From: Orobanche coerulescens
Taxonomy: Eukaryota; Streptophyta; Magnoliopsida; Lamiales; Orobanchaceae
DNA length: 64,000 bases
Assembly: GCA_033398695.1 (NCBI GenBank)
Contig: CM065804.1
Location: 120,151,501 to 120,215,500 of the forward strand
Direction: 5' to 3'
Below the pieces are notes generated by a model that ran no database searches, was not told the DNA's origin, and saw only the letters and a list, made by a program, of their open reading frames with translations. Position 1 is the first letter of the stretch, and each line of letters starts with the position of its first letter. Of the stretch, positions 2,089 to 60,405 are shown one piece after another. The position numbers and the translations under genes were made by a program.

Positions 2089-4888
2089 TGTAACACCCCC
2101 AATCCACTCAGGGATATTACACGCCGTAGACCCTCTCCTCGAGGATCTACCAGGCTGATAACTAAAATCAAACATCTAAACATCGCCTTTAAGGCTAAAA
2201 TGACTCAGCAGACCGATTTGGTCTTTCAACAATAACATACAACTCAATTCCAAACACATACCCACGCAGGGGTCAAAATATAATAAACTCCCGTACAACG
2301 GGGAAAAAATACTGCAGCGGAAAAGAAAATACAACTGGACCAAAACGACATCAACGGATCCTCGTGTGATTAGTATCGTTCATCTTTCATCATCCTTCGT
2401 GCCGACCCTGTGTTGTGCTCCAAAACCTGAATGCAAAAATAGACATCCACCCCCCGAATACTCAGGCGTTAGCAAAACTCCACTGTTTTGCTAGTGCAAG
2501 TACAAGTGCAATAATACGAGCCATACGATTCAAGTTCCAAGAATAACAATAATCAGAAATCCTCAAAGATTAAAATACAACGAAATGAATAGTTCCCGAG
2601 GCAAGAAATTGAGTAAGACATTCCAAAACCGAAAGACCACAATTAAAGGGAAACAATTTATGAAACAGTTTAAAATGCCATCTAGAGTTTTAATAGAAAA
2701 CAATTTAGGATTATCAAATCCTTATCTTTCCAAAATCAATAGGGGTCACATCCCAAAGGTTTGGTTTTCACAAATAGAAAACCGACAACAGTTCACAGGG
2801 CCAAAACCCAAGTCACATGTCCTCGACGGACATACAATCAAATACCAACTCGTGAAGTTTTTACTCGTGATTCCCGGACTCAACCCATTGGAATTCCCGT
2901 TGTGGCCCCGTCGAACCAACCCACGGTGAGTAAAATACATTCACTAAATATACAACAACCTGTGAAGTTTTTACTCGTGATTCCTGGACTCACCCATTGG
3001 AATTCCCGTCGTGGCCCCGTCGAACCAACCCACGGTGAGTAAAATACGTTCACTAAATAACATATCAAACCAAGCATCGCCTTGGGAATAGGGTAATACC
3101 ATTGATCCCACCCGAGGCCTCGAAGGACCCTCCCGAGCTGGCTAGCTAAATAAATCACACACATAGCACAATGCAACAAAGATATCCAAACAATTCATTC
3201 ATAGGTATCAAACACTTAGCAAAACACCTCATCAAACCACAACGCACCGAAATGAAATGATATACGTCCACACGCAATACCAATTGCAACATCAACACCA
3301 AACATATCCATAGAAATCACATAGTCATTTACAAAATACACCATTCACAAAACACACGCGTTTTGAAAGTGAGCCTTTAACATGGCTATCCAAATCTTTT
3401 GAAAACTCGTTTCAAATAACCAAACAAACACATTGATATGGTCACCAATCATCATATCCAGAAAACAAGAAAAGTATGGACAAGGTACTTGCCTTGAACA
3501 ACCACAACGCGGAGAATCGACCGGAGTAGGTTGGCACGAACCGACTACGAACCCGCCGACTCCACCGAATGCCAACTCGCGATAATAAACTATGGAGGAC
3601 AATAACAACAATGAAAATGAATTCCATAGCATGACTCAAAGCCGTTGAATTCAAAGAACGAACGATGAATGTTCAAGTGTTTTCCCCAAAACGGCCAAGA
3701 ACACGATTCGTCCCGACAAAATACGAAAATGGAATTCCAAGTTGAAATATGGATATACAATCCATAGAATATGTTTAACAACATCATTTAACCATAATTG
3801 ATCCATCAAAAACGGATGAAAAACGAGATCGATGACAAATCTCCCAAAAAGTCGATTTGAAGGAAATCAAGAAATATACATCGATTCGACAAAGAACAAT
3901 GGATTAAATGATGTTAAACACAAGAATACTACCAAGATTAATCATACCCATCATAAATTAATCAACAACACGGAACGAATAGGACAAAAATGCAAAAAAC
4001 CCCAAATTCACGAAATTAGGGTTCTAGGGAGAGATTACCTTGATTCACTGGATCAAAGGATGATATAGGATGATTGATTGATGTTATAAACTCAAGAACT
4101 TTGAGGATTTGTTGTTCAACAACATGGCTCCATGATTAGCACACCCTCAGCCACGGAAGAGAAGGAGAAGAAGGAGAAAAATGGCCAAAAACCCGACTGC
4201 AGGGCCTTATATAGGCTGCCTACCGGCCGGGTTACGTACGTAACCGGCCAAGGCTTACGTACGTAACCGAGTCGCTGCCCCAAAACTGCCGGCCCGTTAC
4301 GTACGTAACCGGACAAGGCCTTACGTACGTAACCAGCCTTACGTACGTAACTGCCGAGCACTACCGGCCGTAACTCGGCCAGTGCCGGCCTGGGCCCGAA
4401 CGACGGCCCGAACGACCCAGAAACCCGAACCTGAATACGAATCGAAGATACGGTTACGAAGTACTCGCAAAGACGAACTCGAGCACTAAGAGAACACACG
4501 ATTCCGACCACCCAAAGGCTCGAAATTCGACAACGGAAAGTAATTACCCCAAACTTTGGGAAATTACGAAAATGGTCCAAAACGTCCGAAATACAGGATA
4601 CATGATCGAAACACCAAACGGAAGTTCACAACACGTTTAACAAAGTTAAATGGACTTATGGGAAACTCGAAACAGCAGTTTCGAAGGAGATTCGCAAGAA
4701 TCGAACTCAAGTGCGGAAAAGTCGCTAAAAAGCACGAAACTCAACAAAACGACACCGAAACGAACTCGGATGTCAAAAAGTGTAGAATTAATCATTCCTA
4801 GAATGGCGAAATGGTCATGAGCGAGTCGTCAAAACATACTTCTGCCGAAAAAAAGAAATTACCGGAAATCGAAATTACGGGTATTACA
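2089..4888 (-). repeat. 5' LTR of minus-strand gypsy element A
   Basis: The 2.8 kb LTR is bounded by TGTAATACCC and GGGGGTGTTACA on its sense (minus) strand, with a primer site just beyond its 3' end. From sense 5' to 3' it holds U3, a cluster of TTACGTACGTAA palindromes, a TATA box, a 110 bp tandem duplication (2852-2961 and 2962-3058 on the plus strand) and the terminal stem-loop at 2126-2150 (ten pairs, GUAGAUCCUC with GAGGGUCUAC). It abuts copia island B at 4889, so A probably inserted into that copia element. Confidence 0.85.
4206..4352 (-). promoter_or_regulatory. LTR promoter: TATA box with ACGTACGT palindrome array (A)
   Basis: On the minus strand CCTATATAAG (4206-4215) is preceded by five perfect copies of TTACGTACGTAA between 4232 and 4352, spaced irregularly by about 10-30 bases with GGCC/CCGG-rich spacers. 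The position directly upstream of the TATA box suggests upstream promoter elements. The copia element K uses the same core. Confidence 0.6.
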
Positions 4889-7183: not shown

Positions 7184-7221
7184 CTATATATACTGGACAG
7201 AACACGGCGCAACAAACGGCC
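7184..7221 (-). promoter_or_regulatory. TATA box and start of inverted-repeat block, LTR of C
   Basis: On the minus strand TATATATAGG is preceded by ACGGCGC/GCGCCGT-type sequence at 7202-7221, which continues on the far side of inserted element D at 12241. The insertion therefore separated the LTR's upstream block from its TATA box by 5 kb. Confidence 0.6.
7217..7221. repeat. Target-site duplication CGGCC, left copy of element D
   Basis: CGGCC immediately precedes the left LTR and is repeated at 12241-12245 immediately after the right LTR. This fixes both ends of element D. Confidence 0.9.
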
Positions 7222-8501
7222 TGTTAGGCGTATTTTTATGCGCTTATTTATCATTATTTTATGTCCATCTTGAGCCTAATTCAGCATAAATGAGATTTTA
7301 ATGCACTATTCTTATATGTTTTGCAGGAAATCAGAGTCCGGAAGCCAAAACGATGAAAAACGGGCGAAAACAGTAGTTTTTGGTCATGAGCCGCGGCACA
7401 AACCAAGTGAGCCGCGGCACACTTAGACAACCAGCGAGCGCTGAAGCACACTGTACTGTGAGCCACGGCACAGCCTAAGTGAGCCGCGGCCCAGGAGGAA
7501 AAATGCACCCAGGTATAGGCGCTGGGCGTTAAGGGGCCGCGGCACAGCCTAAGTGAGCCGCGGCCCACGAAGCGGTTTTAACAGAAAGTGCCGCGTTTCT
7601 GGGCCGTTTTGGAGCCTATTCTCGACCTAATCACACGGACGCATTTTGGAGGCTGATGACGACTATAAATAAGCATTGAAGGGCTGAAGACAAAGGGAGG
7701 GATCGATCAGGAGGAATTCGGAGGTGGATCATAGCTAGGGTGAAGAACACAAGGAGGAGATTTGTGGGCGACGACAAGACCACGGATCCCTACGGTTTTT
7801 CTGCATCTTAGTTCCTAGATCTATTCGAGTAGGATTTTGATTGTAGCCGATTTCATGACGGTTTGATTATTTATTATTATTTCGATTTACTCATTATTAT
7901 ATTGAATTGGATTCTTCTTACTGTTCTTAATGCTTTTTAATTGTCTGGCCAACAGTTAATTTGTTTTGAATGTCTTTATAGATTCGGGAGATGAAATTTA
8001 GGCATAGTTCTTGTGAGACGAATCATAATTTTCGTGAGATAGGGATATACTAATGCGAATTGTGAAGCCTGTTATTGTGGGAATTCTTGAACTGTTTTAG
8101 CTATTAATTATCTAATTCGAATAGGGATATATCGAGTTAAAAATGCGTAGTATTTTCTATCGACCTTGAGAAAGGCTTTAGAATAATTTAGGAATTCCTG
8201 GCTTACAATCAATTGAATAAAAGTGAATTGAATCGAATAAATATCATTCCCGAATGTTTGAGGTGAAAATCATAATCCTACGCCCTTATTAGTATCCTTA
8301 TTATTATTAGTACTATTATTTATTTTCTACAATTAGTTTAGATATAAACTCTATTTAATTGTTCTTCAAATAAAATTGTGAGTTGACTATATTTTGGTAC
8401 TTAGTGAAATCAGTCCTCGAGGGAACGATACTTTACTTCTCACTTTATTACTTGTTGACACCGTGCACTTGCGGCATATTGTGAGGGATTTTCCCACAAC
8501 A
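7222..8501 (+). repeat. 5' LTR of element D
   Basis: Begins TGTTAGGCG and ends CCCACAACA. It carries a run of GAGCCGCGGC motifs at 7389-7564, a TATA box ACTATAAATAAG at 7663-7673 and AT-rich sequence to its end. By eye it differs from the 3' LTR by only a few per cent, so the insertion is fairly recent. Confidence 0.92.
7389..7673 (+). promoter_or_regulatory. GCCGCGGC palindrome array and TATA box, 5' LTR of D
   Basis: About five copies of a GTGAGCCGCGGCMC motif, each holding the 8-base palindrome GCCGCGGC or a one-base variant, lie 100-270 bases upstream of ACTATAAATAAG. Most copies are in the same orientation and spaced about 20-60 bases. The same array recurs in the 3' LTR at 11131-11312, with its TATA at 11403-11413. 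Confidence 0.6.
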
Positions 8502-8506
8502 AGTTT

Positions 8507-9352
8507 TTGGCGCCGTTGCCGGGGACTGATTTTTCGCTAATATCAATACCAAGCGACTCTAATTTTAATTTGAAGTTTTTTTTCTTTAGTCTCTATATTT
8601 TTGATTTCTTCATTATGTTTTCCTTTGAGTATCGTGGCCCTTGGCATTTCATAAATTTCGATGTTCTTAATAATTTGCCAAATAGGGTCAGTCAGCCCCC
8701 TCCCCCAAAACAAAAGACCATGCTTGAACAATGTATAGACGTTCTCAAAAATCCCGATAGTACCCTTTTTGAGTGAGAATGTGCACGTCGTGGTCTTGAG
8801 ATTGACTATGGTTGTATTCCAGCTCATATATTTAGTAGTGAAGTTGAGGGGGAGGTTGAGAAGAAAGACATGCTAAGTTTTAAGGTCGATTCCCCAGCAC
8901 CCGATAATTACATAAAGTGTGATGAGCCTGTAGAAGAAGTTACCATTGATGATGTTTCCAAAGAAATTTCATTAAATTGTCATCAAACTTCGACTAATAA
9001 GGTGAACACTTTTGTGCCAAAAATTTTATTAACGGTGCCGCGCATAATCTTTCCTAAATCCATAATGGGAGAGATTGACCCTATTACTTTTGATTCTGTT
9101 GAGGCTGATACCATGAGTTCTAATGAGGTTGTTCATGATAAGTCTTTATTATTTACCCATTCGAACTCTGCTTATTTTTTCATGCCTTATCATTATTATA
9201 TTCTTCCATCATTTTTTGGTTGTCCTCATAATTCTTCTTACTCATTATTTGTGGCAACCGGGCATGAACCAAAGCCTCCCCTATGGAATAAGAGGCTTAT
9301 AGATTGCAAGAAGGGGGCATTTGGCAATCTCCGTAGAAAAAAGCCACGTTAA
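8507..9352 (+). pseudogene. Degraded internal reading frame of element D
   Basis: A frame opens across the primer site and stops at 8776. A second open stretch (8870-9352, 160 codons) follows after a further short gap; the sequence between them (ECARRGLEIDYGC...) reads on as if one protein was interrupted by a stop at 8774-8776. The products contain acidic stretches and a basic C-terminus (KRLIDCKKG, RRKKPR) but no zinc knuckle, protease or polymerase motif. I do not recognise a known domain. It could be a remnant of a gag-like or leader protein, or a frame kept open only by low stop density. Confidence 0.45.
8508..8525 (+). promoter_or_regulatory. Primer-binding site (tRNA-Asp), element D
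   Basis: TGGCGCCGTTGCCGGGGA starts seven bases after the LTR. It is complementary to the 3' end of plant tRNA-Asp (CCCGGCAACGGCGCCA as I know it), the primer used by Athila-type elements. Confidence 0.88.
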
Positions 9353-10964: not shown

Positions 10965-12240
10965 TGTTAGGCGTATTTTTATGCGCTTATTTATCATTAT
11001 TTTATGTCCATCTTGAGCCTAATTCAGCATAAATGAGCTTTTAATGCACTATTCTTATATGTTTTGCAGGAAATCAGAGTCCGGAAGCCAAAAAGATGAA
11101 AAACGGGCGAAAACAGCAGTTTTTGGTCATGAGTCGCGGCACAAACCAAGTGAGCCGCGGCACACGAAGACAACCAGCGAGCGCTGAAGCACATTGTACT
11201 GTGAGCCGCGGCATAGCCTAAGTGAGCCGCGGCCCAGGAGGAAAAATGCGCCCAGGTATAGGCAGGCGTTAAGGGGCCGCGGCACAGCCTAAGTGAGCCG
11301 CGGCCCACGAGGCGGTTTTAACAGAAAGTGCCGCGTTTCTGGGCCGTTTTGGAGCCTGTTCTCGACCTAATCACACGGACGCATTTTGGAGGCTGATGAC
11401 GACTATAAATAAGCATTGAAGGGCTGAAGACAAAGGGGGGATCGATCAGGAGGAATTCAGAGGTGGATCATAGCTAGGGCGAAGAATACAAGGAGGAGAT
11501 TTATGGGCGACGACAAGACCACAGATCCCTACGGTTTTTCTGCATCTTAGTTCCTAGATCTATTCGAGTAGGATTTTGATTGTAGCCGATTTCATGACGG
11601 TTTGATTATTTATTATTATTTCGATTTACTCATTATTCTATTGAATTGGATTCTTCTTACTGTTCTTAATGCTTTTTAATTGTCCGGCCAACAGTTAATT
11701 TGTTTTGAATGTCTTTATGGATTCGGGAGATGAAATTTAGGCATAGTTCTTGTGAGACGAATCATAATTTTCGTGAGATAGGGATATACTCATGCGAATT
11801 GTGAAGCCTATTATTGTGGGAATTCTTGAACTGTTTTAGCTATTAATTATCAAATTCGAATAGGGATATATCGAGTTAATACTGTGTAGTATTTTCTATC
11901 GACCTTGGGAAAGGCTTTAGAATAATTTAGGAATTCCTGGCTTACAATCAATTGAATAAAAGTGAATTGAATCGAATAAATATCATTCCCGAATGTTTGA
12001 GGTGAAAATCATAATCCTACGCCCTTATTAGTATCATTATTATTATTAGTATTATTATTTATTTTCTGCAATTAGTTTAGATATAAACTCTATTTAATTG
12101 TTATTCAAATAAAATTGTGAGTTGACTATATTTTGGTACTTAGTGAAATCAGTCCTCGAAGGAACGATACTTTACTTATCACTTTATTACTTGTTGACAC
12201 CATGCACTTGCGGCATATTGTGAGGGATTTTCCCACAACA
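10965..12240 (+). repeat. 3' LTR of element D
   Basis: 1,276 bp, near-identical to the left LTR, with the same GCCGCGGC array (11131-11312) and TATA box (11403-11413). It ends CCCACAACA directly before target copy CGGCC. Confidence 0.92.
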
Positions 12241-12510
12241 CGGCCTAACTAGCGCCGTGTTCATCGCCATGTTGCAAGTCAGCGAGCGACCCCTGTGCGA
12301 CACGGCGCACAGACACGGCGCAGAATGCCGCGGGTCTTGCGCCGTTTTGCTAGACAGCTAGCGACCCCTGTGCGACACGGCGCACAGACACGGTGCATAA
12401 TGCCACGGGTCTTGCGCCGTTTCGCTAGAAATTGAGCGACCCCTGTGCGACACGGCGCACAGACACGGCGCAGAATGCCGCGGGTCTTGTGGCGTTTTGC
12501 ACAGGTCATG
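12241..12510 (-). repeat. Three 75 bp tandem units with ACGGCGCA/TGCGCCGT inverted repeats
   Basis: Continuation of the LTR of C beyond element D. Units at about 12282-12356, 12357-12431 and 12432-12506 each contain GACCCCTGTGCGACACGGCG, a second ACGGCGCA-type copy and a TGCGCCGT-type copy near the end. ACGGCGCA and TGCGCCGT are reverse complements, so each unit can form a hairpin. On the minus strand the block lies upstream of the TATA box at 7184-7193. It contains an open frame that is only a by-product of the repeat. Confidence 0.85.
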
Positions 12511-18153: not shown

Positions 18154-18158
18154 GAATA

Positions 18159-20835: not shown

Positions 20836-23701
20836 AGTAAAACCCGAGATTTTCATTCAGGTTAATTTGAATTTTTTTTCTTAGACCGGATATTTCTCGG
20901 TTGTCCACCCTTGGTATTATTTTCTCGTTGACTGATTTTGTGGTCGTAGGTGGTGATTTGTTTCATGATATTTCATTTCGGATCAATGATTTTGTCCGCG
21001 AGAGTTTCGTCGTGTTCGTTCCATACCTTTTTGAAAATCGGGTTGTCGAGTCTTGGCGGCGCGGCAATGACCGGCCAGGTGCGGCAATGACTGGCTAGGT
21101 GCGCACGAGCAGCCCACACGGGCCAACGCTCTTGCGGAACAGGCAGACTGCTGGGCAGTCTCTGCCGGCCGCGCCCGAGCATGGCGCACGAGCAGGGCGT
21201 ACGATCCGGTGCTCGTGCGGCCCTGACTGCACGCGCACGAGCGAGTGCTCGTGTATCTCGGCAGACTCCTGGCAGTGGGGCGCACGCCCCGACTCACGAC
21301 CGGACGTCCGAGCATCATGCTCGTGCATGTCCGGAAGACTCCCATACGTATCCAGAAGCTTCTGGCAAGTTCTTGGCGAACGAGTCACGCACGGCCGGTG
21401 GTCGTGCATGGCTGCTCGTGCGTCCTGCGGGTTCTATATAAATGACCGGGCAGACATATTCATTACCCGTTTTCTAAACCTAACTCGCCTCTTCCTCGTC
21501 CAAGACTTAGTGAACATGAAGGCATGGTGTATAACTACCGATCCACGTCGTTTCTGAGCTTCTATCATCGATTAATCATCCTATAATCTTCTCCGATCGA
21601 TCGAATCAAGGTATGATTTCCTAAAAATCTAGTTTTGGGAAAGTTGGGAATTTTGGTTGATTTCGTCCCTTTAATCATAATTAGCGTATTATAGTGATGG
21701 ATTATCGAAGATTAAGTTGAATTTTACCAATTTCCTTGTTGTTCCATGGTTCGGTTGTAAAAGATTCATCGTTTTGTTGAATTACTAATCGACACCTTGA
21801 AGGTGTCCGGTGAAAGTTCTTAGAGGGGGTTTCGGGCGTTCTACGGTTAGTCTTCCTCGTACGATCGTTGATTATTGATGATATGATGTTAGGGTGAGGT
21901 TTCTTGCGAAGAACTCGAGTCGAAACTTTTCCCTTCGTCGTTTTCTTCAAGAATTCGAAGCTTCCCGATCGATCGTGTTATCGTTGTTTCTGCCCGGAGA
22001 AATGTAGGTGTTCAAGGTTTCCTGGTTGAGTCGTTTTCATCAGAGTGTCCAGTATCGATTATCGAGGCAAGTATCTTGCCTATACACTTCATGTTTCGTA
22101 GTCATAATAGTTGGTAATTGACTATGTGTGCGATCGGAATGTTTTTAATGAATTTATAAAAGAATCGGTATATTTTCGATGAAGGCATTCTTTAAAATCT
22201 ACTTATGTGTTTGTGAACGAATGTGTCGTTCTGAGAAGGTGTATTAGTGTTGTTTATTGGAATGACTTGTTTGCGTATGGTACCGTTGTGTGTGATAATG
22301 TCGACAGTGGATTTAAAGTTACGTCTTTTTGCAAGAAGTGTGTGTGTGCGTGTGTGTAGACATGTGTGTTATTGATGAGTATGTGATGTTGTGTGATGTG
22401 AGTGTGTGTCGGACATAGTGGCCATTTCTAACAAGTACCTTGATTTACATTTGATGTACTCCGGGGGAATGAATTTGTGAAAGTATGTTGTGGAAAGTGA
22501 TGATTTCTGAAAGTGCGACTTGTAGTCGTGTGCCAAGTAAAACCAGCGAGGGTCCCCTGGATTCCGTAGACCGAGGCTTCTGCGGTCCACTTGGCAGGGT
22601 TTGTACAACCAGGGAGGCCTGACGAGGACTTTCTGGGTAGAGGTATGTATCTCGCGTGAGGTACAGCACCTGTAGAGGGCCCATTGTTGTTTTGTGATGA
22701 TGTTGTTTTCGATAATTGTGATATGTCCGTAATATCACAACATTGTCATTCTCGATGTGAGATACGTTATATGTAGGGTCTTGGTACTTGGCTAGAATGG
22801 CATCAGTATAAGTGTCGTTTATGATTCGTTTCTTGGTTGTGATATTTTTGGCATAAGGATATGGGCCCAATTAATGTTTTCGTGCATTGTGGTTTGGTTG
22901 TGTATCGAGTTTGACCATTGAGTTATTCACTCGAGTATGTGATGTGGATGATTGGGTCGTGGACTCCGTGTTTTGTGACCGGATTTGCATTTTTGAAACA
23001 AAAACAATACTTGGGGTCGTATCCCTATGTGGTTTTCGATAAGTTGAGGATTCATTGGTCCAAAAATGTCTTTCCAAAACTCCCGAGAATCTTTAAATGC
23101 TTTTCAAAGTGTCTACATGTCTCATTCCAACTTTTTACGGTTTGAACTATTTTATCCAATAAAATATCTCGGGAAGTCTTTGTTGGGTTGAATTGTGGAA
23201 TTTATCAAGTTATTATATTCTTGGAGTATGTTGTGTATAGCTCGTATTTGCACTTTATACTTTCACTAGCAAAACAGTGGAGTTTTGCTAACCCCCGACT
23301 AATCGGGGGGTGGATGTCTGTATTACGTCCAGGTACTTGTAGGTTCTTGGGGAGCTAATCACAGGATCGGTACGAAGAATGATGGAATACGACGATACTA
23401 ATCACATGAAAACTATTGTTGAGTATTTTGGTCAATGCATGTTGTGGTGTCTTTTCCACTATTGTATTTTCTGATTGTAAGAGTATGGTTCATGTATTTG
23501 AACCTGGTTTGGGTTTGAGTGGTATCAGAGTTTGCGTGTCTGATTTGTAAAATTGTGGTGAAAGACCAAATAGGTCTAATGGTTCGTTATTTAGTCAGTC
23601 GGCTTGTAATATAATGTATCGTTTGTGTATTTATCCTAGTAGATCCTCACGGAGAGGGTCTGCGGCGCTGTGATATTCCCGAGTAATTTGGGGGTGTTAC
23701 A
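20836..23701 (+). repeat. 3' LTR of gypsy element E
   Basis: 2,866 bp, starting AGTAAAACCCG (TG expected, first bases changed) just after the polypurine tract and ending GGGGGTGTTACA. It has an inverted-repeat array (21098-21425), TATA box CTATATAAAT (21434-21443) and terminal stem-loop (23639-23663, GUAGAUCCUC with GAGGGUCUGC). It is inserted into LINE F, whose sequence starts at 23702. The left flank of E is deleted, so the target duplication cannot be checked. Confidence 0.88.
21098..21443 (+). promoter_or_regulatory. GCACGAGC/GCTCGTGC inverted-repeat array and TATA box, LTR of E
   Basis: At least eight copies of GCACGAGC or its reverse complement GCTCGTGC (and near forms) lie within about 330 bases upstream of CTATATAAAT. 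Both orientations are mixed, for example TGCTCGTGCGG followed by GCGCACGAGCG, so hairpins are possible. The 5' LTR retains only the last three. Confidence 0.6.
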
Positions 23702-26444: not shown

Positions 26445-28545
26445 TGTAACACCCCGAAATATTTAGAGTATATTACAGCGCCGTGGACCCCTACATGGGA
26501 CCCACCAGGCTACGACAAGAAAACACCAGTCGACTAACCATCTCGGTTAGCGAGGACACACATTTAAATAGTACAACATATAACAATACGCCCGGAGCAA
26601 CTGGCGTAATAAACATCAACCAATAATGTAGCAATTTGAGTTAATACAAAATGAAGTTCGAAATGAAAAACCCAAGTACTCGCGAGTACAATCTATAAGT
26701 TTATAAATGTGGGAAACAACCAAATCGAAGTAGACAAAAGAAATAAGAGGACTCAAATGCACATGTCAACGACCCTGGCCAACATCCTCGTACTGTCCCA
26801 GCGCCCGCTCGTCCGGCAGAACATAACCTGAAATCCATAACAAGAATTTCCCCAAAACGGGTTCCCAAAGGGGTTAGCAACTACGCTAGTACAAGTAATC
26901 AAGGCAAACCATTCGCTTACACGTTTCATAGTACAATGCACCAAATCATTTCAAAACCAAAACCAGACATGTCTTTTCGAGAAACAAACAGTCAAACAAT
27001 TTTCCTAGGACCGGGACGAAACCACGAATCCTACCCGAGGCCTCTAATGACCCTCCCCGGCTGGCCATATTCATAAAACAAACCAAGCACACATGTCACC
27101 TAGGACCGGGACGAAGCCACGAATCCCACCCGAGGCCTCTAAGGACCCTCCCGGGCTGGCCGCGAAACAAACTCATGAATCCAGAACGAAGCCATAGATT
27201 CCCCCAAGGCCCCGTCGGACCCTCCCGGGGTGAGTAAAGCACACACAATATACATTACCATTTCACGTTAAGCATAAAGGTTTCCAAAAATACTTGCCTT
27301 GAATAATAGACGACGCAACGAACGGAAGGAAAACACCGACGGACGTTAGGAGCCGATAAATACGAACCTAACGATACGAAGAACATAATTACGACCAATT
27401 CTAAACGAATACGGAATTGGAAAACACCCAAAAACCCGCCTACAACTTATGTGTATTCGCATCAAAACAACGACGAGGGCGGATCGCAACCAAACCCTCT
27501 CGATTACGCAAATATCACGAAATACACCATGAGTTCGTAGGAGAACAAGAATGCTAACGAGATCAATCATAATCATCAAGAATTAATTAACAACACGGAG
27601 TAAAACGAACAATACAACCGAAAACCCCCAAATCCCCCAAGGTAGGGTTCTAAGAGATTTTACCTTGATTCGAAGATCAACGATGGATGATTAGTGATAG
27701 GTGGATGATATGATACTTGAATATGCCCTTACAATGGAGTTTGGATCAAAATCGGACGAACCCTAGCCTATGTCGTCTCTCCCGTCGCAAAGAGAAAAGA
27801 GAGATGTGAGAAATGAGGAAAAACGGGCCGCTGCTAGTTTATATAATGGCAGGTGTTACGGCCGTAACTCAAACATGATACGCCCGTAACTAAGAACTGG
27901 ACCAAGAGGCAAGAAACGAAGCCTTGTTATGTCCGTATGAAAGAAAGCTTACGGCCGTAACTCTCGATTATTATGGCCGTAACATATACGGCTTACGGCC
28001 GTAACATGGCCTGTGACAGCAGGCCAAAGTCTGAAGCACTGCTCGACGAGAAGATGATCGGAAAGAAAGAAAAAAAAGAACAAGGTGTATCCACGACCAA
28101 CGGATACACTCACCACGGATTTGAGTCAGAAACCAAAACGTTACGATGAAGCGTGATTCCGAATACCCGAAGGCTCAGGAACAACAAGGATAACAAGAAT
28201 ACCCTAAACTTAGGGAAATTACGAAACGACCCAAACGTCCAAAAAAATCGCGATACACATCGGATTAACAAACCGAAACTCACAACACGAATAACTCAAC
28301 TATACGAACTCGTGAAACCAAAGAAATTACAAAAGCGAACGGATTCTACGAGAATCGAACGTCCATGCCATAATACATGACATAAAACAGAATAATATCA
28401 AAACATCACCAAGATCGTCCCAAATGGAGAAACTCCAAGAATAAAAATAGATTCAAAATGTCAACATGGTTACAAGCGAGCTACTAAAAATGAAAATACA
28501 CCAAAACGGGAATATCGGAAAAAGAAGAAAAATGCGGATATTACA
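26445..28545 (-). repeat. 3' LTR of gypsy element H
   Basis: 2,101 bp; sense strand TGTAATATCC to CGGGGTGTTACA, with purine-rich AGAGAGGTAGAA just before it (28546-28557). It carries TATA (CCATTATATAAA, 27838-27848), ACGGCCGT palindromes (27856-28010), tandem units containing CCTAGGACCGGGACGAA (27003-27240) and the terminal stem-loop at 26483-26505 (GUGGGUCCC with GGGGUCCAC, nine pairs). It is close to the solo LTR at 33856-36108 apart from a 160 bp deletion in the palindrome array. Confidence 0.9.
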
Positions 28546-33855: not shown

Positions 33856-36108
33856 TGTAACATCCCGAAATATTCGGAGTATATTACAGCGCTGTGGACC
33901 CCTACATGGGACCCACCAGGCTACGACAATAAAACACCACTCGACTATCATCTCGGTTAGCGAGGACATATATTTAAATAGTACAACATATAACGATACG
34001 CCCGGAGCAACCGTCGTAATAAACATCAACCGACAATGTAGCAATTTGAGTTAATACAAAACGAAGATCGAAATGAAAAACCTAAGTACTCGCGAGTACA
34101 ATCTATAAGTTTATAAATGTGGGAAACAACCAAATCGAAGTAGACAAAAGAAATAAGAGGACTCAAATGCACATGTCAACGACCCTGGCCAACATCCTCG
34201 TCTTGTCCCGCCGCTCTGCAGCGAACATAACACAAATCCATAACAAGAATTTCCCAAAAACGGGTTCCCAAAGGGGTTAGCAATTACGCTAGTACAAGTA
34301 ATCAAGGCAAACCATTCGCTTACACGTTTCATAGTACAATGCACCAAATCATTTCAAAACCAAAACCAGACATGTCTTTTTCGGAAACAAACAGTCAAAC
34401 AATTTGCCTAGGACAGGGATGAAGCCACGAATCCCACCCGAGGCCTCTAAGGACCCTCCCGGGCTGGCCATATTCATAAAACAAACCAAGAACATACGTC
34501 ACCTAGGACCGGGAAGAAGCCACGAATCCCACCCGAGGCCTCTAAGGATCCTCCCGGGCTGGCCGCGAAACAAACTCATGAATCCAGGACGAAGCCATAG
34601 ATTCCCCCAAGGCCCCATCGGACCCTCCCGGGGTGAGTAAAGCACACACAATATACATTACCATTTCACGTTAAGCATAAAGGTTTCCAAAAATACTTGC
34701 CTTGAATAATAGACGACGCAACGAACAGAAGGAAAACACCGACAGACGTTAGCAGCCGATAAATACGAACCTAACGATACGAAGAACACAATCACGACCA
34801 ATTCTAAACGAATACGGAATTGGAAAACACCCAAAAACCCGCCTACGACTTATGTGTATTCGAATCAAAACAACGACGAGGGCGGATCGCAACCAAACCC
34901 TCTCGATTACGCAAATATCACGAAATACACCATGAGTTCGTAGGAGAACAAGAATGCTAACGAGATCAATCATAATCATCAAGTATTAATTAACAACACG
35001 AAGTAAAACGAACAATAGGACCAAAAACCCCCAAATCCCCCAAGGTAGGGTTCTAAGAGATTTTACCTTGATTCAAAGATGAACGATGGATGATTAGTGA
35101 TAGGTTGATGATATGATACTTGAATATGCCCTTACAATGGAGTTTGGATCAAAATCGGACGAACCCTAGCCTCTGCCGTCGCTCCCGTCGCGAAGAGAAA
35201 AGAGAGATGTGAGAAATGAGGAAAAACGGGCCGCTGTCAGTTTATATACTGGCAGGTGTTACGGCCGTAACACACCCCACATACGGCCGTAACATAGGAA
35301 CATTACGGCCGTAACCTGACTCTCTTACGACCGTAACTGGCCTCTGGAGAGAAACTGGGAAATTCGACAAAAGACACATATGGCCGTATCAAGAACACCA
35401 TTACGGCCGTATCAATACTTACGGCCGTAACTCAAACATGATACGCCCGTAACTCAGAACTGGACTAGGAGGCAAGAAACGAAGCCTTGTTACGGCCGTA
35501 TGAAGGAAAGCTTATGGCCGTAGCTCTCGATTATTACGGCCGTAACATATACGCCTTACGGCCGTAACATGGCCTGTGACAGCAGGCCAAAGTCTGAAGC
35601 ACTGCTCGACGAGGATATGATCGGAAAGATAGAAAAAAAATAACAAGGTGTATCCACAACCAACGGATACACTCACCACGGATTTGAGTCAGAAACTAAA
35701 ACGTTACGATGAAGCGTGATTCCCAATACCCGAAGGCTCAGTAACAACAAGGATAACACGAATACCCTAAACTTAGGGAAATTACGAAACGGCCCAAACG
35801 TCCAAAAAAATCGTGATACACGTCGGATTAACAAACCGAAACTCACAACACTAACAACTCAACTATACGAACTCGTGAAACCAAAGAAATTACAAAAGCG
35901 AACGGGTTCTATGAGAATCGAATGTCCATGCCATAATACATGACATAAAACCGGATAATATCAAAACATCACCAAGATCGTCCCAAATGGAGAAACTCCA
36001 AGAATAAAAATAGATTCAAAATGTCGACATGGTTACAAGTGAGCTACTAAAAATGAAAATACACCAAAACGGGAATATCAGAAAAAGAAGAAAAATGCGG
36101 ATATTACA
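33856..36108 (-). repeat. Solo LTR H' (same family as H) inside LINE F
   Basis: 2,253 bp LTR, TGTAATATCC to GGGATGTTACA on the minus strand, flanked by CTACC on both sides (33851-33855 and 36109-36113), with LINE coding sequence outside each side. No primer site or coding region adjoins it, so it is a solo LTR. TATA at 35241-35250; terminal stem-loop at 33894-33916; tandem units at 34407-34636. Confidence 0.9.
35241..35575 (-). promoter_or_regulatory. TATA box and long ACGGCCGT palindrome array, solo LTR H'
   Basis: AGTATATAAA on the minus strand is followed upstream by about a dozen TTACGGCCGTAAC or one-base variants (35259-35571), with irregular 10-40 base spacing. The first is perfect at 35259-35271, another at 35419-35431; the 160 bases between those two are exactly what is missing from the sister LTR at 27856. 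Confidence 0.65.
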
Positions 36109-38096: not shown

Positions 38097-38271
38097 CAAC
38101 AAGATTAGCATACGTAACATGCTTTACGTACGTAACATACAAAATGTTACATACGTAATGCTCTACTCAGAGCGCACTGCCCCAAACTACATATATGCTA
38201 ACGTATGTAATGGAATGAGAATAACGTACATAAGGCGCACTTAGCTAACGTACATTATCTACTGAAGCTAG
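38097..38271 (-). repeat. Left fragment of gypsy-like LTR J with ACGTACGT-type palindromes
   Basis: Contains TTTACGTACGTAAC (38121-38134) and degraded versions (CATACGTAAC, TACATACGTAAT, TAACGTACAT). The last five bases, GCTAG at 38267-38271, are the left target copy of copia element K. The sequence continues at 45495. Confidence 0.6.
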
Positions 38272-39313
38272 TGTTGGGTACGGGTTCGGAAATTTGCACC
38301 GTGTTGCAGAAGCGTAAATTAAAATGCGGAAAATAAAGGACACGAGGATTTATAGAGGTTCGGCTATAAACGAGCCTACGTCCTCTCTTTATCTTTTTCA
38401 ATAGGTTAAAGATAGCAACCTCTACGCCTCTCTTCTATCGGTCGAGGTATAGCCGTTTACAATCACGTCTTCTATCGGTCCGTGATAAACCACTCGTACT
38501 TGTCTTTGCGTCGGTCCAAGTTAAACCGTTTTCCTTTTCATAGGACAAGGAATCAACCTCTCTAGCTTTCTATTGGCACTAGATAAGCCTCACTAAGATA
38601 GCGATTACGATTCTAACAATGCCGGATCCTTGATCCTAAGAACACCGAATCCAATCGTATCTTTTCTTTTACCACTCGTGTATATGTTGAATGTATAAAC
38701 ACTCAAACTAACAATTAAGCTCAATATTACAACAACAAGTATATCAATATGAATCTCTGATCAATGAGTTGTTTGCTTTGTGTTGTTGTGCTTGATCAAT
38801 ACCATAGACATGGTATTTATAGGCTCCATCATCCAACTAGCCGTTAGCTGCCAGACTGCTCATTACGTACGCTATCATCCCCTTATTACGTACACAAGCC
38901 TCGTTACGTACGTTAACCACCACGGGTTACGTACGTAAGCCTCTTCCAGTTTCAGTCCAGGGAGTTTCGTCATATTGGTTACGTACGTTAGCATATACTC
39001 CATTACGTACGTTAAGCCATACGTCAGTGCTGACGTCATGTGTCCGTTGCATGCTTTTCTGACTTTGACTCCTCCAACGTTCACTTGTTTGAACTAAGTT
39101 ACGTACGTTAATTATCCTTCATTACGTACGTAAGCCTTATAATATTACGTACGTTAATCGTTCCATGTTACGTACGTTAGCTTTGTTTTTCTCCAGTATT
39201 TTGCACTTCGTTTTCCTTCGATGCTTGCTTCGTCTCTTCGTTGTTTTGTTTTGCTTATCAACATTAATCATCAAAACACTTTTAATTTATGTATGGAACT
39301 AAATGTTCCAACA
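38272..39313 (-). repeat. Copia K LTR 1 (3'-most)
   Basis: Plus-strand ends TGTTGGGTAC and TTCCAACA. On the sense strand TATA (CCTATAAATACC, 38813-38824) lies downstream of a TTACGTACGT array at 38862-39180. Confidence 0.92.
38813..39180 (-). promoter_or_regulatory. TATA box and TTACGTACGTTA array in copia K LTR
   Basis: About ten copies of TTACGTACGTWA or TTACGTACGCTA, spaced 10-60 bases, begin some 45 bases upstream of the TATA box on the minus strand. The core ACGTACGT is the same as in gypsy LTR A although the two elements belong to different orders of gene arrangement. The array is repeated in LTR 2 (41950-42267) and LTR 3 (45038-45355). Confidence 0.65.
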
Positions 39314-41302: not shown

Positions 41303-41346
41303 TGGATCTTTTTCTCCTCGGATGTTAAGCCGTGTATTGGAGTACC

Positions 41347-41358
41347 GCTCCGATACCA
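41347..41358 (-). promoter_or_regulatory. Primer-binding site, copia K unit 1
   Basis: Minus strand TGGTATCGGAGC two bases after the LTR end (AACA-AT-TGGTATC). Confidence 0.88.
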
Positions 41359-41360
41359 AT

Positions 41361-42401
41361 TGTTGGGTACGGGTTCGGATATTTGCACCGTGTTGCAGAA
41401 GCGTAAATTAAAATGCGGAAAATAAAGGACACGAGGATTTATAGAGGTTCGGCTATAAACGAGCCTACGTCCTCTCTTTATCTTTTTCAATAGGTTAAAG
41501 ATAGCAACCTCTACGCCTCTCTTCTATCGGTCGAGGTATAACCGTTTACAATCACGTCTTCTATCGGTCCGTGATAAACCACTCGTACTTGTCTTTGCGT
41601 CGGTCCAAGTTAAACTGTTTTCCTTTTCATAGGACAAGGAATCAACCTCTCTAGCTTTCTATTGGCACTAGATAAGCCTCACTAAGATAGCGATTACGAT
41701 TCTAACAATGCCGGATCCTTGATCCTAAGAACACCGAATCCAATCGTATCTTTTCTTTTACCACTCGTGTATATGTTGAATGTATAAACACTCAAACTAA
41801 CAATTAAGCTCAATATTACAACAACAAGTATATCAATATGAATCTCTGATCAATGAGTTGTTTGCTTTGTGTTGTTGTGCTTGATCAATACCATAGACAT
41901 GGTATTTATAGGCTCCATCATCCAACTAGCCGTTAGCTGCCAGACTGCTCATTACGTACGCTATCATCCCCTTATTACGTACACAAGCCTCGTTACGTAC
42001 GTTAACCACCACGGGTTACGTACGTAAGCCTCTTCCAGTTTCAGTCCAGGGAGTTCGTCATATTGGTTACGTACGTTAGCATATACTCCATTACGTACGT
42101 TAAGCCATACGTCAGTGCTGACGTCATGTGTCCGTTGCATGCTTTTCTGACTTTGACTCCTCCAACGTTCACTTGTTTGAACTGAGTTACGTACGTTAAT
42201 TATCCTTCATTACGTACGTAAGCCTTATAATATTACGTACGTTAATCGTTCCATGTTACGTACGTTAGCTTTGTTTTTCTCCAGTATTTTGCACTTCGTT
42301 TTCCTTCGATGCTTGCTTCGTCTCTTCGTTGTTTTGTTTTACTTATCAACATTAATCATCAAAACACTTTTAATTTATGTATGGAACTAAATGTTCCAAC
42401 A
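41361..42401 (-). repeat. Copia K LTR 2 (shared middle LTR)
   Basis: Serves as 5' LTR of unit 1 and 3' LTR of unit 2. Near-identical to LTR 1 and LTR 3; TATA at 41901-41912. Confidence 0.92.
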
Positions 42402-44389: not shown

Positions 44390-44433
44390 TGGATCTTTTT
44401 CTCCTCGGATGTTAAGCCGTGTATTGGAGTACC

Positions 44434-44445
44434 GCTCCGATACCA
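44434..44445 (-). promoter_or_regulatory. Primer-binding site, copia K unit 2
   Basis: Minus strand TGGTATCGGAGC, same placement as in unit 1. Confidence 0.88.
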
Positions 44446-44447
44446 AT

Positions 44448-45489
44448 TGTTGGGTACGGGTTCGGATATTTGCACCGTGTTGCAGAAGCATAAATTAAAA
44501 TGCGGAAAATAAAGGACACGAGGATTTATAGAGGTTCGGCTATAAACGAGCCTACGTCCTCTCTTTATCTTTTTCAATAGGTTAAAGATAGCAACCTCTA
44601 CGCCTCTCTTCTATCGGTCGAGGTGTAACCGTTTACAGTCACGTCTTCTATCGGTCCGTGATAAACCACTCGTACTTGTCTTTGCGTCGGTCCAAGTTAA
44701 ACCGTTTTCCTTTTCATAGGACAAGGAATCAACCTCTCTAGCTTTCTATTGGCACTAGATAAGCCTCACTAAGATAGCGATTACGATTGTAACAATGCCG
44801 GATCCTTGATCCTAATAACACCGAATCCAATCGTATCTTTTCTTTTACCACTCGTGTATATGTTGAATGTATAAACACTCAAACTAACAATTAAGCTCAA
44901 TATTACAACAACAAGTATATCAATATGAATCTCTGATCAATGAGTTGTTTGCTTTGTGTTGTTGTGCTTGATCAATACCATAGACATGGTATTTATAGGC
45001 TTCATCATCCAACTAGCCGTTAGCTGCCAGACTGCTCATTACGTACGCTATCATCCCCTTATTACGTACGCAAGCCTCGTTACGTACGTTAACCACCACG
45101 GGTTACGTATGTAAGCCTCTTCCAGTTTCAGTCCAGGGAGTTTCATCATATTGGTTACGTACGTTAGCATATACTCCATTACGTACGTTAAGCCATACGT
45201 TAGTGCTGACGTCATGTGTCCGTTGCATGCTTTTCTGACTTTGACTCCTACAATGTTCACTTGTTTGAACTGAGTTATGTACGTTAATTATCCTTCATTA
45301 CGTACGTAAGACATATAATATTATGTACGTTAATCGTTCCATGTTACGTACGTTAGCTTTGTTTTTCTCCAGCATTTTGCACTTCGTTTTCCTTCGATGC
45401 TTGCTTCGTCTCTTCGTTGTTTTGTTTTGCTTATCAACATTAATCATCAAAACACTTTTAATTTATGTATGGAACTAAATGTTCCAACA
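44448..45489 (-). repeat. Copia K LTR 3 (5'-most)
   Basis: Ends TTCCAACA directly before target copy GCTAG. It has more CpG-to-TpG type changes in its palindrome array than LTR 1 and 2 (for example TTACGTATGTAAG, TTATGTACGTTAA). Confidence 0.92.
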
Positions 45490-45994
45490 GCTAGTGTACG
45501 TAAGCTTCATGTAGTACATAGCTGTTGCAGTTCGATTCATTATGTAAGGGTATTTACAGATGCAACGAACACGAGCCACCATGGTTAATTAAACCGAGCA
45601 GCACAACAGCCAAAACATGAGTCTAAACACCGAACAAGCATGTGACTCTAGTAGCCCGAATGTTGGAAAGACGAATACAAAGAGAAACACCCAAGACTTT
45701 GGAAAATTATGAAATGGCCCAAACGCCCGAAATCACGATATGAGGTTGAACAACAACTCTGGAGTTTGCAACATGACTAAAAATGTTAGGTGAACTTGTG
45801 AGAACAATAAAATATTAGTTTCGAACAAGATTCACAGGAATCGAATCCAAATGCGAAAAAGTCGAAATAATATACCGATTAATCTGAAACAATATAAAAC
45901 TCACCCGAATGACAAAAAGGCAGAAAAAAACATGTCCAAAATGTGTCATTGAGCACAAACGAGTTGCTAGAATCGAATACAATCTTGAACTAGT
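45490..45994 (-). repeat. Right fragment of gypsy-like LTR J (U3)
   Basis: Starts with target copy GCTAG then TGTACGTAAGC, continuing the palindrome array of 38097-38271. Then follows sequence typical of gypsy U3 here (GAAAATTATGAAATGGCCCAAACG, split across 45700-45725, and AGGAATCGAATCC). The LTR's 5' terminus is missing: sequence changes at about 45994. Confidence 0.6.
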
Positions 45995-46015
45995 TGTCAT
46001 CTACATCTTTTCAGG

Positions 46016-50413: not shown

Positions 50414-50545
50414 CTATTTATACTGTCAACAGTTAGCGCACGCTAAGATATGTGTAGCGTGCGCTATCGGATGCAAAATGCAGTCCAGAACCCTCTGCCA
50501 GACTTCGTTAGCGCGCGCGAATAAATGGGTTTAGCGTGCGCTAAT
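50414..50545 (-). promoter_or_regulatory. TATA box and AGCGYRCGCT palindromes, LTR M
   Basis: On the minus strand AGTATAAATAGG is preceded by four to five TTAGCGCACGCTAA-type motifs at 50433-50543 (for example TAGCGTGCGCTA and TTAGCGCGCGCG). The core is the same as in element N although the two LTRs differ elsewhere. Confidence 0.6.
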
Positions 50546-50937: not shown

Positions 50938-51192
50938 GATAGCGCACGCTAAGAATGTAGCTTAACGCGCGCTATCGGCTACTACTAGCGCACACTACGT
51001 ATGTAGGAGTTGCGTGCGCTAGGCACTCAATTATTGAGCTGGGCGGCTAGCACATGCGCCAGCCGGGACATGGGTCCGGGTAAGATTCTCGCGGAAGAAC
51101 CTGGATAGTTTTGAAGTCAACTCTTATTAGCGCGCGCTGAGGAATGCTTAGTAGCGTGCGCTAATCTGCTTTGTGCAGAAAGTTTATATATG
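50938..51192 (+). promoter_or_regulatory. AGCGCGCT-type palindrome array and TATA box, 5' LTR of N
   Basis: Motifs TAGCGCACGCTA, TTAACGCGCGCTA, TAGCGCACACTA, TTGCGTGCGCTA, TTAGCGCGCGCTG and TAGCGTGCGCTAA precede TTTATATATG. The 3' LTR has the same array with several C/T or G/A differences. Confidence 0.65.
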
Positions 51193-52006: not shown

Positions 52007-52226
52007 AGTTAGTGCACGCTAAGCTATGTAGATTAACGTGCACTATCGAGAATGAGTTAACATACGCTACGCTTGGTACATAACGTACGTTAGGCCATCA
52101 GTCGAGTCAGTCGGCTGATGAGTGAGGTACTGACCATGCATAGTTAGCGCACGCTAGGCTTTGTTGTTTGCGTGTGCTATCGAGCAGACTTAACGCACGC
52201 TATACAGAATACTTAGCGTACGCTAA
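52007..52226 (+). repeat. Second palindrome array downstream of the TATA box, LTR of N
   Basis: TTAGTGCACGCTA, TTAACGTGCACTA, TTAACATACGCTA, TTAGCGCACGCTA, TTAACGCACGCTA and TTAGCGTACGCTA, about 830-1,040 bases downstream of the TATA box, with a TAACGTACGTTA among them (52081-52092). The copy in the 3' LTR is at 59280-59500. Confidence 0.75.
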
Positions 52227-58023: not shown

Positions 58024-58044
58024 GTTTCGGGACGAAACTCCTTT

Positions 58045-58058: not shown

Positions 58059-60405
58059 TGTAATATCCGGATTTATTACTATGTATTTTACCTGTATTCG
58101 AACCCTGTATTATTCGGAATTGTGATCTTGATGATTGGAGTATGATATTTCTTACATTGGTATCTTTGTACATAAGTATATCAACATACAAAATTTCTCA
58201 TGCAAACTCGTGATAGCGCACGCTAAGAATGTAGCTTAACGCGCGCTATCGGCTACTACTAGCGCACGCTATGTATGTAGGAGTTGCGTGCGCTAGGCAC
58301 TCAATTATTGAGCTGGGCGGCTAGCACATGCGCCAGCCGGGACATGGGTCCGGGTAAGATTCCTGCGGACGAACCTGGACAGTTTTGACGTCAACTCTTA
58401 TTAGCGCGCGCTAAGGAATGCTTAATAGCGTGCGCTAATCTGCTTTGTGCAGAAAGTTTATATATGGGCCAGCACTCCATTTTTATTCCCATTTCCTTCG
58501 TTCATTCTTCAGTTTTGAGAGACCAGAGGGAAATAATTATCCTCCTAACATACTTAGAACACATCTACTTGATCCTTGAACATTGGATATTACTTGTGAG
58601 TGATCATTGAAGTGAAGTAACACCTTTAAGTGGCATATAACCAACCGGAGTCGGATTCTACCTTGTGGTTCAGTGATTTCGTCATTTTAAGGTATGTTGA
58701 TTCTATCTTCAACTCTAGATTCGTGTTATGGAGAATAAGATGATCATGTTAGCTAGTATTGATCTTCTTGGATGAATTATCCAAAGCACATCATGTTTGG
58801 AATATTGAGATGAATATGCCTTAAGTACCTTGATTATGAACATCATGATTCGAATCTTATTACATTGAACAAGTAGAGGAAGTTTCTATCATTGGTAAAT
58901 CCGAATTTAGTAGGTATCTTCATAGCAATCATGGACTTGACTTTAGTATCACTATTGTTAGATGGATATAAGAGATTAATCATGGAAGGATTTATCTTGG
59001 AATGTTAATCAAACTACAGAGTGATAGTTTTCATTGATATTAAGGTGTTGATATCGACCGTTAAGCCTTCCGAATTATCGCATGAAGAATTGTATTTGAA
59101 ATGTAATATGGTTTTATAATAGTATACATATTCTTGAATCCGAAGTTGTTGTTATCCGTAAGATCATTCATAACCGTATGAACATGATATTCATGGAGGT
59201 AACATGAATTAACACTGAAGATTTCATTGGTTTGATCATGATGAGATCAGTCTACTGCCCATTAGTGAACTGCCATGCATAGTTAGCGCATGCTAAGCTA
59301 TGTAGATTAACGTGCGCTATCGAGCATGAGTTAACGTACGCTACGTTTGGTACGTAACGTACGTTAGGACATCAGTCGAGTCAGTCGGCTGATCAGTGAG
59401 GTACTGACCATGCATAGTTAGTGCACGCTAGGCTTTGTTGCTTGCGTGCGCTATCGAGCAGACTTAACGCACGCTATACAGAATACTTAGCGTACGCTAA
59501 GAAGTTCAGGCAGATTGCGTTTTATGAACTTTCGGCCGTAATTTTGGATTGTTAGACATTCGTACGGCATGAGATAAATTCTAGATTATTTCTTTTGTTA
59601 AGGTTCGAGCTTGTTATGTGATTGATTGAAGGGGCGACCTTCGAGTGGTTTGTGGAAGTTTTGTCCTTGTCTTCGAACCGAGGCAAGTACTCTAATTAGA
59701 ATTGTTTATATTATGATAATTATCATGTGATTATATTGTGTAAATGTATTGTGATTATATGTCCACCATGCGTTGATCCGACGGAATCATCATGGGAATC
59801 TATAGCTGTGTGCGCTGGATCGTTGGATAGGTAGTTCCACCATGTGTTGGTCCGACGGGATCATCATGGGAATCTATAGCTATGTGCGCTGGATCGTTGG
59901 AATACCATCAGTATGTTGGAAAATGTTATGATATTATATGTGTTGTTGGTATTTCTCGTTGGAGAAACTTTTCATGATATAATTGTTGATTATATTACTG
60001 TTGTATGATTATTGTACTTGTACTAGCATCGTTGTGCTAACCCCTGCGGGGGTGAACATTTTTTTATGTTCAGGATCCAGGAGAGCGGGGAAACAACCAC
60101 TGGAGCTGCATGACGACGAGGGTGCAGAGTGATGTTCCGGCCGGGTTTTATTGTCTGTTGTTTGTTGGTTATTTCAATCAGTACTCGAGTGCATCGTCAG
60201 TTTAAGATGTTTGGATTTTGGTGATGTATTAATAACCCTTCATTGGATAATTGTATTCTCGGTATTGAACAATACTGTTGTATTTTATTTCAGTAATTTC
60301 ATAAGTTGGTATCTGTTATTGTCTTTTCGCTTCTTCAGCCTTGTAAATTCTTACGTAAAGGATTTACGGCGCTGTGATATTCCTGAATATATCGGGGGTG
60401 TTACA
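58059..60405 (+). repeat. 3' LTR of element N
   Basis: 2,347 bp copy of the 5' LTR; TATA 58457-58466, terminal stem-loop 60343-60367 (GUAAAUUCUU with AAGGAUUUAC, ten pairs), tandem units 59761-59900. Followed by ACACC. Confidence 0.95.

Follow-up and report, generated by a model that had tools for sequence, protein, structure and literature searches.

Doublets and quartets of CpG palindromes at 21-24-bp spacing upstream of the TATA box in copia and gypsy long terminal repeats of Orobanche coerulescens

Here we analysed a 64-kb stretch of the 3.65-Gb genome of the plant Orobanche coerulescens (contig CM065804.1, positions 120,151,501 to 120,215,500; hereafter the window), which contains a nest of long terminal repeat (LTR) elements, namely chromodomain gypsies, the Athila-like element D and the copia element K. 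Nine palindrome or inverted-repeat arrays were found in LTRs of the window, and eight of these stop 13-103 bp upstream of the TATA box. In the palindromic arrays the sites are mostly grouped by two or four at centre-to-centre distances of 21-24 bp. They use a small set of cores, one of which, ACGTACGT, is common to copia K and the gypsy-like LTRs A and P. On the basis of this arrangement, we estimate a probability of about 60% that the arrays are promoter-proximal LTR enhancers composed of cooperative sites for dimeric DNA-binding proteins.

The initial annotation of this DNA had reported palindrome clusters directly upstream of the LTR TATA box in seven families, which was borne out with corrections and proved to be larger than claimed (Table 1). 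Most of the cores listed there could be counted (29 copies of ACGTACGT, 12 of ACGGCCGT, 10 of GCCGCGGC, 3 of GCACGAGC with 7 of GCTCGTGC, and 6 of ACGGCGCA with 2 of TGCGCCGT); AGCGCGCT, however, had no copy, and the form present in M and N is TTAGCG-NN-CGCTAA. By core type, CGGCCG is used in H, CGTACG in A, K and P, and GCGNNCGC in M and N. Array P, the ninth, is interrupted by the inserted K element and includes several sites with three mismatches. Array C is likewise split, in this case by element D, with its proximal part at 7191-7221 and the target-site duplication CGGCC at 7217-7221 and 12241-12245. The first site of array A (4367) is degenerate, with two mismatches.

The spacing of the sites had been described as irregular, a description that does not hold: 25 of the 37 gaps measured in the window were 21-24 bp long, where 4.3 would be expected from random placement (P at the minimum obtainable from 20,000 placements), and none was 25-41 bp long. 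The 37 gaps are those of A, N, D, M, K and H', two degenerate sites being left aside (one in K at -471 and that of A noted above), so that A contributes 18, 24, 42 and 23 bp, and the others the values in Table 1; the second M array was kept outside this test. Taken alone, the spacing was significant in five of the six families. The sites formed eight groups of four, eight of two and one of three. An early 10.5-bp signal had raised the idea of helical phasing, with the sites on one face of the DNA, but the best period was 23.6 bp and we do not claim it.

The same arrangement was present elsewhere in the genome. The hold-out of 250 kb was made up of 10-kb stretches, 20 from fixed coordinates on contigs C1-C5 and another five from C6-C10. 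The orientation, TATA, cluster-gap and group-size tests use the first 20 stretches, with the few arrays of L026-L030 listed apart; all four test cores were taken from the window, and the hold-out arrays carry no formal LTR assignment. An array of at least four sites was present in 14 of the 20 stretches. When up to two mismatches were allowed in these 20 stretches, gaps of 21-24 bp accounted for 29/49, 22/29, 65/102 and 16/43 of all gaps for the four cores, and gaps of 25-41 bp for 0, 1, 0 and 1, in a tally that was made without a trimming rule and in which some sites were counted for two cores. With one array per similarity cluster, the 15 independent arrays had 79 of 113 gaps at 21-24 bp (null 13.0, maximum 27) and no gap at 25-41 bp (null 36.3). 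Counting observed sites only, these arrays comprised 21 groups of four, 18 of two, two single sites and two groups of three, i.e. 39 of 43 groups had two or four sites. Degenerate end sites in these 15-array counts were trimmed by a 17-26-bp gap rule, which slightly favours that class. Another count, made for the spacer and orientation test below, dropped lone sites with three mismatches, placed an inferred missing site at gaps of 42-48 bp, entered certain arrays twice, once for each of two cores, and used both LTRs where an element has two; it gave 12, 29, 10, 49 and 2 groups of one, two, three, four and five sites, respectively, and was recounted with one array per cluster. Genome-wide, TTACGTACGTAA occurs 170,680 times against 255 for the reversed control word, and TTACGNNCGTAA 412,278 times against 2,319. 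Exact doublets were found 19,476 times at 21-24 bp and 1,754 times at 25-41 bp (control 0 in both classes). In the second class 50 places were listed, of which 45, read by eye, had a gap of 41 bp with another site inside (18 + 23).

We then considered the position of the arrays, using as a measure 8-mers whose reverse complement recurs, with three or more copies, compared with 200 dinucleotide shuffles. In the region from -400 to -1 relative to the TATA box, this measure was enriched in 13 of 14 LTRs and in all eight TATA-anchored families (P = 0.005, the shuffle floor), the truncated 5' LTR of E being the only one without enrichment. The TATA boxes had been chosen by eye beside the arrays, so this test compares parts of LTRs and is not blind on the TATA link. 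Elsewhere, 10 of 56 regions of 400 bp reached P < 0.05; three of these contain the array of a neighbour, two the second M array and three rest on three words, while the remaining two, at the K LTR edge and in the internal domain, are unexplained. Perfect 8-bp palindromes alone were significant from -400 to -1 in 7 of the 14 LTRs (A, three of K, two of D, and H') and not in H 5', E, M, N or C. From the last site to the TATA box the distance was 24 bp in A, 47 in K, 16 in H, 27 in M, 17 in N, 103 in D, 17 in E and 13.5 in C. A blind scan of the 64 kb returned 13 segments, 12 of them known arrays, with 143 windows over threshold compared with 0-5 in shuffled sequence; it did not pick up P, either of the D arrays or one of the two second arrays of M.

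The cores themselves are drawn from a narrow vocabulary. AT repeats aside, the commonest 12-bp palindromes in the 250 kb were GTGCCGCGGCAC (22), TAGCGCGCGCTA (18), TTACGGCCGTAA (14) and TTACGTACGTAA (13), followed by others with 6 or fewer (counts that include copies of the same family). The last three of these four are the cores of M/N, H and A/K/P, respectively, and GTGCCGCGGCAC is the GCCGCGGC centre of D with different flanks; GTGCC-NN-GGCAC was not found in D itself. In addition, only 2 of the 64 possible TTA-core-TAA 12-mers recur in these 250 kb of other genome sequence. Because four cores lead the palindrome list and so few 12-mers recur, the core is not free to drift and a few specificities are reused; the earlier proposal of a freely changing core is not supported in that form, ACGTACGT moreover being present in both copia and gypsy-like LTRs. 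The centres of the 34 TTACGNNCGTAA sites in the 250 kb were GC in 14 and TA in 13 cases and never AT or CG, and among the first 100 genome-wide places listed AT occurred once and CG never. The specificity of these sites therefore goes beyond self-complementarity.

The sharing of cores does not simply follow LTR similarity. TTAGCG-NN-CGCTAA is common to M and N, though their LTRs gave no match to each other, whereas the upstream flanks of A, H and C are alike (those of A and H downstream as well; 72-75% over the longest matches) and their cores differ. One array of hold-out stretch L008 (2136-2290) is mixed, with five TA centres and one GC. Similar flanks with different cores, together with this mixed array, make it likely that arrays are exchanged or rebuilt as modules between homologous LTR flanks. 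The carriers had been called unrelated elements, which is true in part: K is a copia and D is Athila-like, and similarity was seen between LTRs of the remaining six (A, C, E, H, M and N) in various pairs.

Conservation was concentrated in the sites. Identity within sites and within spacers was 0.91 and 0.38 in K (null 0.31, P = 0.013), 0.87 and 0.37 in H (null 0.33), and 0.76 and 0.40 in M (null 0.32). This bears on the view that the arrays are neutral, functionless minisatellites, i.e. 22-bp tandem repeats expanded by slippage, which we regard as very unlikely because the palindromes are 76-91% identical while the spacers of K, H and M are near random, the spacing is equal across arrays of different clusters, and few cores recur in the genome. 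Spacers that are alike in A and D, slightly so in K, and between the halves of quartets would fit such repeats, and so would the H copy at 27.9 kb, which lacks a segment that sits between two identical palindromes of the H' copy, as if recombination or template switching had used the palindromes. In 38 unique quartets, the outer spacers resembled each other when compared in the same direction (0.412, null 0.329, P = 0.002), a likeness that points to tandem duplication of doublets.

The same quartets speak to another possibility, namely that the transcript of the unique 3' region (U3) of the LTR folds into hairpins, for small-RNA silencing or an RNA function, and that the palindromes are kept because they pair. 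Such structure is possible, in line with the self-pairing transcripts proposed in the initial annotation: in all but one of eight families the best 110-nt folds within arrays had energies between -44 and -57 kcal/mol, even group sizes fit pairing, and the non-palindromic C and E as well as hold-out stretches L006 and L025 carry inverted pairs. Passages of PMC10760457 moreover describe that palindromes of maize Sireviruses attract small RNAs. However, the outer spacers of quartets were not complementary (0.295, null 0.319, P = 0.85), and neighbouring oriented TTAGCG-NN-CGCTAA sites were mostly co-oriented (42 agree, 15 oppose; about 31 of 57 expected, binomial P = 0.003, with copies that are not independent). 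In K1 all 10 sites have an intact half facing the TATA box, and 2 of them an intact half on the far side, so that most stems contain an A/A mismatch. The K array folds weakly (-33 kcal/mol), and for both K and N the stretch examined has a lower fold outside the array. The self-complementary centres AT and CG are also nearly or wholly absent. A hairpin origin of the quartets is thus disfavoured by the spacer, orientation and K half-site tests, and we consider pairing as the reason for their upkeep unlikely.

An arms race with CpG methylation had been suggested as well. Methylation pressure is likely, since in six diverged LTR pairs 12-33% of the CpG sites had changed to TG or CA compared with 0.7-3.3% for other transitions, a decay about 9-21 times faster than at other transition sites, inside sites as outside. 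A seventh, nearly identical pair (K1-K2) had 1/58. In the K1-K3, D, M and H pairs, 16 of 76 CpGs differed within sites and 53 of 343 outside; between K3 and K1 this applied to 4 of 20 site CpGs, three of which had decayed in K3 and one in K1. The arms race itself was left unsupported. CpG observed/expected values in the arrays were 1.0-1.7, i.e. CpG was not depleted, though unprotected after insertion, and the sites are therefore likely renewed in the replicating lineage.

Strong CpG decay, as an indication of methylation, would also be in line with a trans-acting anti-silencing factor of transposon origin that binds the arrays and strips methylation, as VANC of VANDAL elements does. Family-specific motif arrays that grow by tandem repeats are the pattern given for VANC in passages of PMC5735166, and doublets appear to duplicate in tandem here. 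Extra open reading frames (ORFs) predicted to be nuclear are described in parts of PMC11728184 for some sunflower Tekay and Athila elements. Against such a factor, all ORFs of at least 150 amino acids (aa) between the LTRs of H and M matched gag-pol-type families, with no extra ORF at this cut-off, below which smaller or split genes would fall, so that an element-encoded factor is not apparent in H and M. Furthermore, ACGTACGT is found in unrelated superfamilies, VANC motifs share one orientation, and the word stem 'palindrom' is absent from the text of PMC5735166. We hold this explanation to be rather improbable.

Returning to LTR enhancers, a dimeric DNA-binding protein would occupy each palindrome, and groups of two or four sites at 21-24 bp would allow dimers to bind cooperatively beside the TATA box. 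The initial annotation had listed a constrained position and sites for a dimeric factor among its readings, and fixed spacing, groups of two or four and the invariant half-site of K support these. We infer protein binding, the dimeric state, the host origin of the protein and the activation of LTR transcription from the arrangement of the sites. The protein would likely be host-encoded because unrelated elements share a core and the ORFs of H and M are all of gag-pol type. Arrays would likely grow by tandem duplication of doublets. It is also likely that, between homologous LTR flanks, they are exchanged or rebuilt so as to carry a different core, by which families would switch among a few host factors; conservation of the sites would likely be kept up in the replicating lineage.

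Several observations weigh against this interpretation. The second M array consists of two quartets far downstream of the M TATA box and breaks the position rule. In the hold-out, only 10 of 26 arrays had an exact TATAWA at a distance of up to 135 bp (5.2 expected, P = 0.018); among 11 arrays without it that were inspected by eye, four show TATTTAA or TATAATT. The motifs of C and E are non-palindromic and form inverted pairs with looser spacing, and for array A alone the spacing fell short of significance (P = 0.09). Without the 21-24-bp class the 10.5-bp signal was weak (P = 0.005 on 9 gaps), and the spacing is no clean multiple of a helix turn. A and K share a single 36-bp match (83%) that covers sites plus spacer, so that their common core may come from sequence transfer and not from a common factor. 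By analogy with the sunflower elements, element-encoded factors may exist in Tekay and Athila lineages.

A bolder version would be that copia and gypsy share a promoter code of about four CpG palindromes of 12-14 bp, in doublets or quartets at 21-24 bp, each with its own dimeric factor, and that families rebuild whole arrays from core to core in concert, the choice of activator being a niche that LTR families divide or have in common; this we put forward as speculative and doubtful. To our knowledge, apart from a few stress-responsive elements there is little understanding of how plant LTR retrotransposons are switched on and why one family takes the place of another. A countable site code with fixed spacing makes these questions testable, and with it the activator of seemingly very many promoters in one genome could be found. 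It would also allow the part that LTR palindromes play in promoters to be told apart from the small-RNA triggering proposed for them.

Table 1. Arrays and related features of the window (groups of sites in parentheses; gaps are centre to centre, in bp)
Feature	Position	Strand	Sites and gaps	TATA box
Array A, chromodomain-gypsy-like LTR fragment	4230..4373	-	TTACGTACGTAA sites; 23,18,24 / 42 / 23	4213
Array D, 5' LTR	7387..7567	+	TGAGCCGCGGCACA sites; 21 / 51 / 21 / 53 / 21	7664
Array D, 3' LTR	11130..11307	+		11404
Array C, distal part	12280..12500	-	GCGCCGTGT in both orientations, 75-bp unit	7192
Array E, 3' LTR	21099..21424	+	CGCACGAGC and its reverse complement; spacing less regular	21435
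Array H, copy at 27.9 kb	27855..28004	-	6 sites, TTACGGCCGTAA type	27845
Array H'	35256..35567	-	12 sites; (22,22,22) 49 (22,18,23) 53 (22,22,22)	35248
Array P, older gypsy-like LTR	38109..38271, continues 45490-45510	-	(23,24,23) 52 (23,18, cut)	
Array K1, Sirevirus-like copia	38863..39179	-	10 sites; (23,23,23) 96 (24) 52 (23,18,23)	38821
Array K2, middle LTR of three-LTR element	41952..42267	-		41910
Array K3	45039..45355	-		44997
Array N	50433..50545	-	TTAGCG-NN-CGCTAA; 23 / 54 / 21	50422
Array M, 5' LTR	50939..51164	+	TTAGCG-NN-CGCTAA; (23,23,24) 118 (24)	51185
Array M, 3' LTR	58213..58438	+		58459
Second M array, 5' LTR	52009..52226	+	(24,24,23) 64 (23,23,23); 0.8-1.0 kb downstream of TATA	
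Second M array, 3' LTR	59283-59500			
K AGGGGGAG tracts, domain one	39535, 39590, 39701, 39737			
K AGGGGGAG tracts, domain two	42623, 42678, 42788, 42824			

Concerning the elements themselves, the chromodomain gypsies H and M have two LTR copies each, and A, C, E and N are pieces. The protein domains of H (RVP_2, RVT_1 and RNase H, then Integrase_H2C2) identify it as a gypsy; the Chromo match stayed below its cut-off (20.8 versus 25.1 bits). We take the gypsies of the window to belong to the lineages known as Tekay and Athila, and the primer-site-like stretch TGGCGCCGTTGCCGGGGA of D to be Athila/Tat-like. In K (38272-45489), three LTRs alternate in tandem with two internal domains, and the target duplication, GCTAG, is intact. 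Each of the two domains holds four AGGGGGAG polypurine tracts, all at most 0.5 kb from an LTR. Several such tracts close to the 3' LTR, on average four, are a Sirevirus hallmark according to passages of PMC2829016. At its terminal tract, which in Sireviruses is AGGGGGAG linked to an AT-TG junction, K has AAGGGGAG-AT-TG, in which the AT-TG junction fits and the octamer is one base off AGGGGGAG. Its gag is broken; the four best homologues, from a search with a limit of about 1.75 times the query (350 aa), have 538-595 aa, in comparison with about 660 aa in Sireviruses and 330 in classic copia (PMC2829016, in part). Among named proteins a close one came from Orobanche gracilis (81% over 21% of the query), and two K ORFs scanned for families gave gag matches only. 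K resembles a Sirevirus.

Some further observations were made along the way. D and K were both inserted within palindrome arrays of other elements (7217-12245 and 38267-45494), and a third LTR start, seen by eye on the minus strand at about 38097, also adjoins array P; an insertion preference for palindrome arrays is possible from these three cases. A further self-complementary repeat cluster outside the listed arrays lies at 19026-19450 of the window, with ATTTTCGAAAAT twice. Another class of array, close inverted pairs of CGGCCGTGTC and GACACGGCCG resembling array C, was seen in L006 (3800-4070) and L025 (6260-6560). When viral contigs were searched, the ACGTACGT doublet pattern matched one phage-like contig, IMGVR_UViG_3300033463_001428 of IMG/VR (L001, 5761-5931), and the ACGGCCGT pattern and the H pol protein matched none. 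This contig carries eight TTACGTACGTAA-type sites at gaps of 22-23 bp directly upstream of a small ORF that abuts a putative terminase gene, and its match to the plant arrays in palindrome and spacing is presumably convergent.

Among known systems, the VANC target arrays of VANDAL elements are likewise dense, evolve in tandem and differ in motif between families, but as far as the passages of PMC5735166 and PMC10398659 go they consist of a same-orientation motif (YAGTATTAY for VANC21) in DNA transposons with an element-encoded binder. QuinCent in einkorn is a U3 module in both a copia and a gypsy family, a transfer proposed in parts of PMC11302176 to have occurred e.g. by gene conversion; in contrast to the arrays here, it is a 162-bp nucleosome-placing motif and no palindrome array. 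The small-RNA hotspots of maize Sireviruses are, like the window arrays, foldable palindrome-rich cis regions of LTRs. In passages of PMC10760457 gypsy elements of maize generally do without the copia-type structure peak, whereas gypsies carry arrays here, and pairing seems not to be the conserved property. Pairs of ACGT with a spacer show species-dependent spacer peaks in gene promoters (PMC3622567, whose text does not contain 'transpos'), passages of PMC6911290 deal with insertion sites rather than promoters, and those of PMC12844716 contribute no information on arrays. In a literature search by titles, abstract openings and passages, no work on palindrome arrays in gypsy LTR promoters was found. 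As far as these searches show, three things are new: that gypsies and an Athila-like element carry such arrays, that the sites follow a rule of spacing and grouping, and that one core is common across superfamilies.

The closest relatives are the RM boxes, palindromes of this type already known in Sireviruses. Passages of PMC2829016 describe them as clustered LTR palindromes upstream of the TATA box, with eight or more copies in each element, that are specific to Sireviruses and missing from classic copia; 12 of 13 elements have a CGG-CCG core. The window arrays are the same kind of feature, and Sirevirus-like K has them. Their copy number is reached by K (10 per LTR) and H' (12), and M has 6 sites upstream of the TATA box plus 8 in its second array, whereas the fragments A and N as well as D stay below it with 4-6 sites in the LTR. 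Unlike RM boxes as described there, the window arrays also occur in chromodomain gypsies, H being a gypsy, and in an Athila-like element. Their cores are often CG-TA-CG or GCG-NN-CGC, the CGG-CCG core of RM boxes being present in H and not in A, K, P, M or N. Finally, the window arrays follow a rule of spacing and grouping, while the account of RM boxes in these passages gives no spacing rule.

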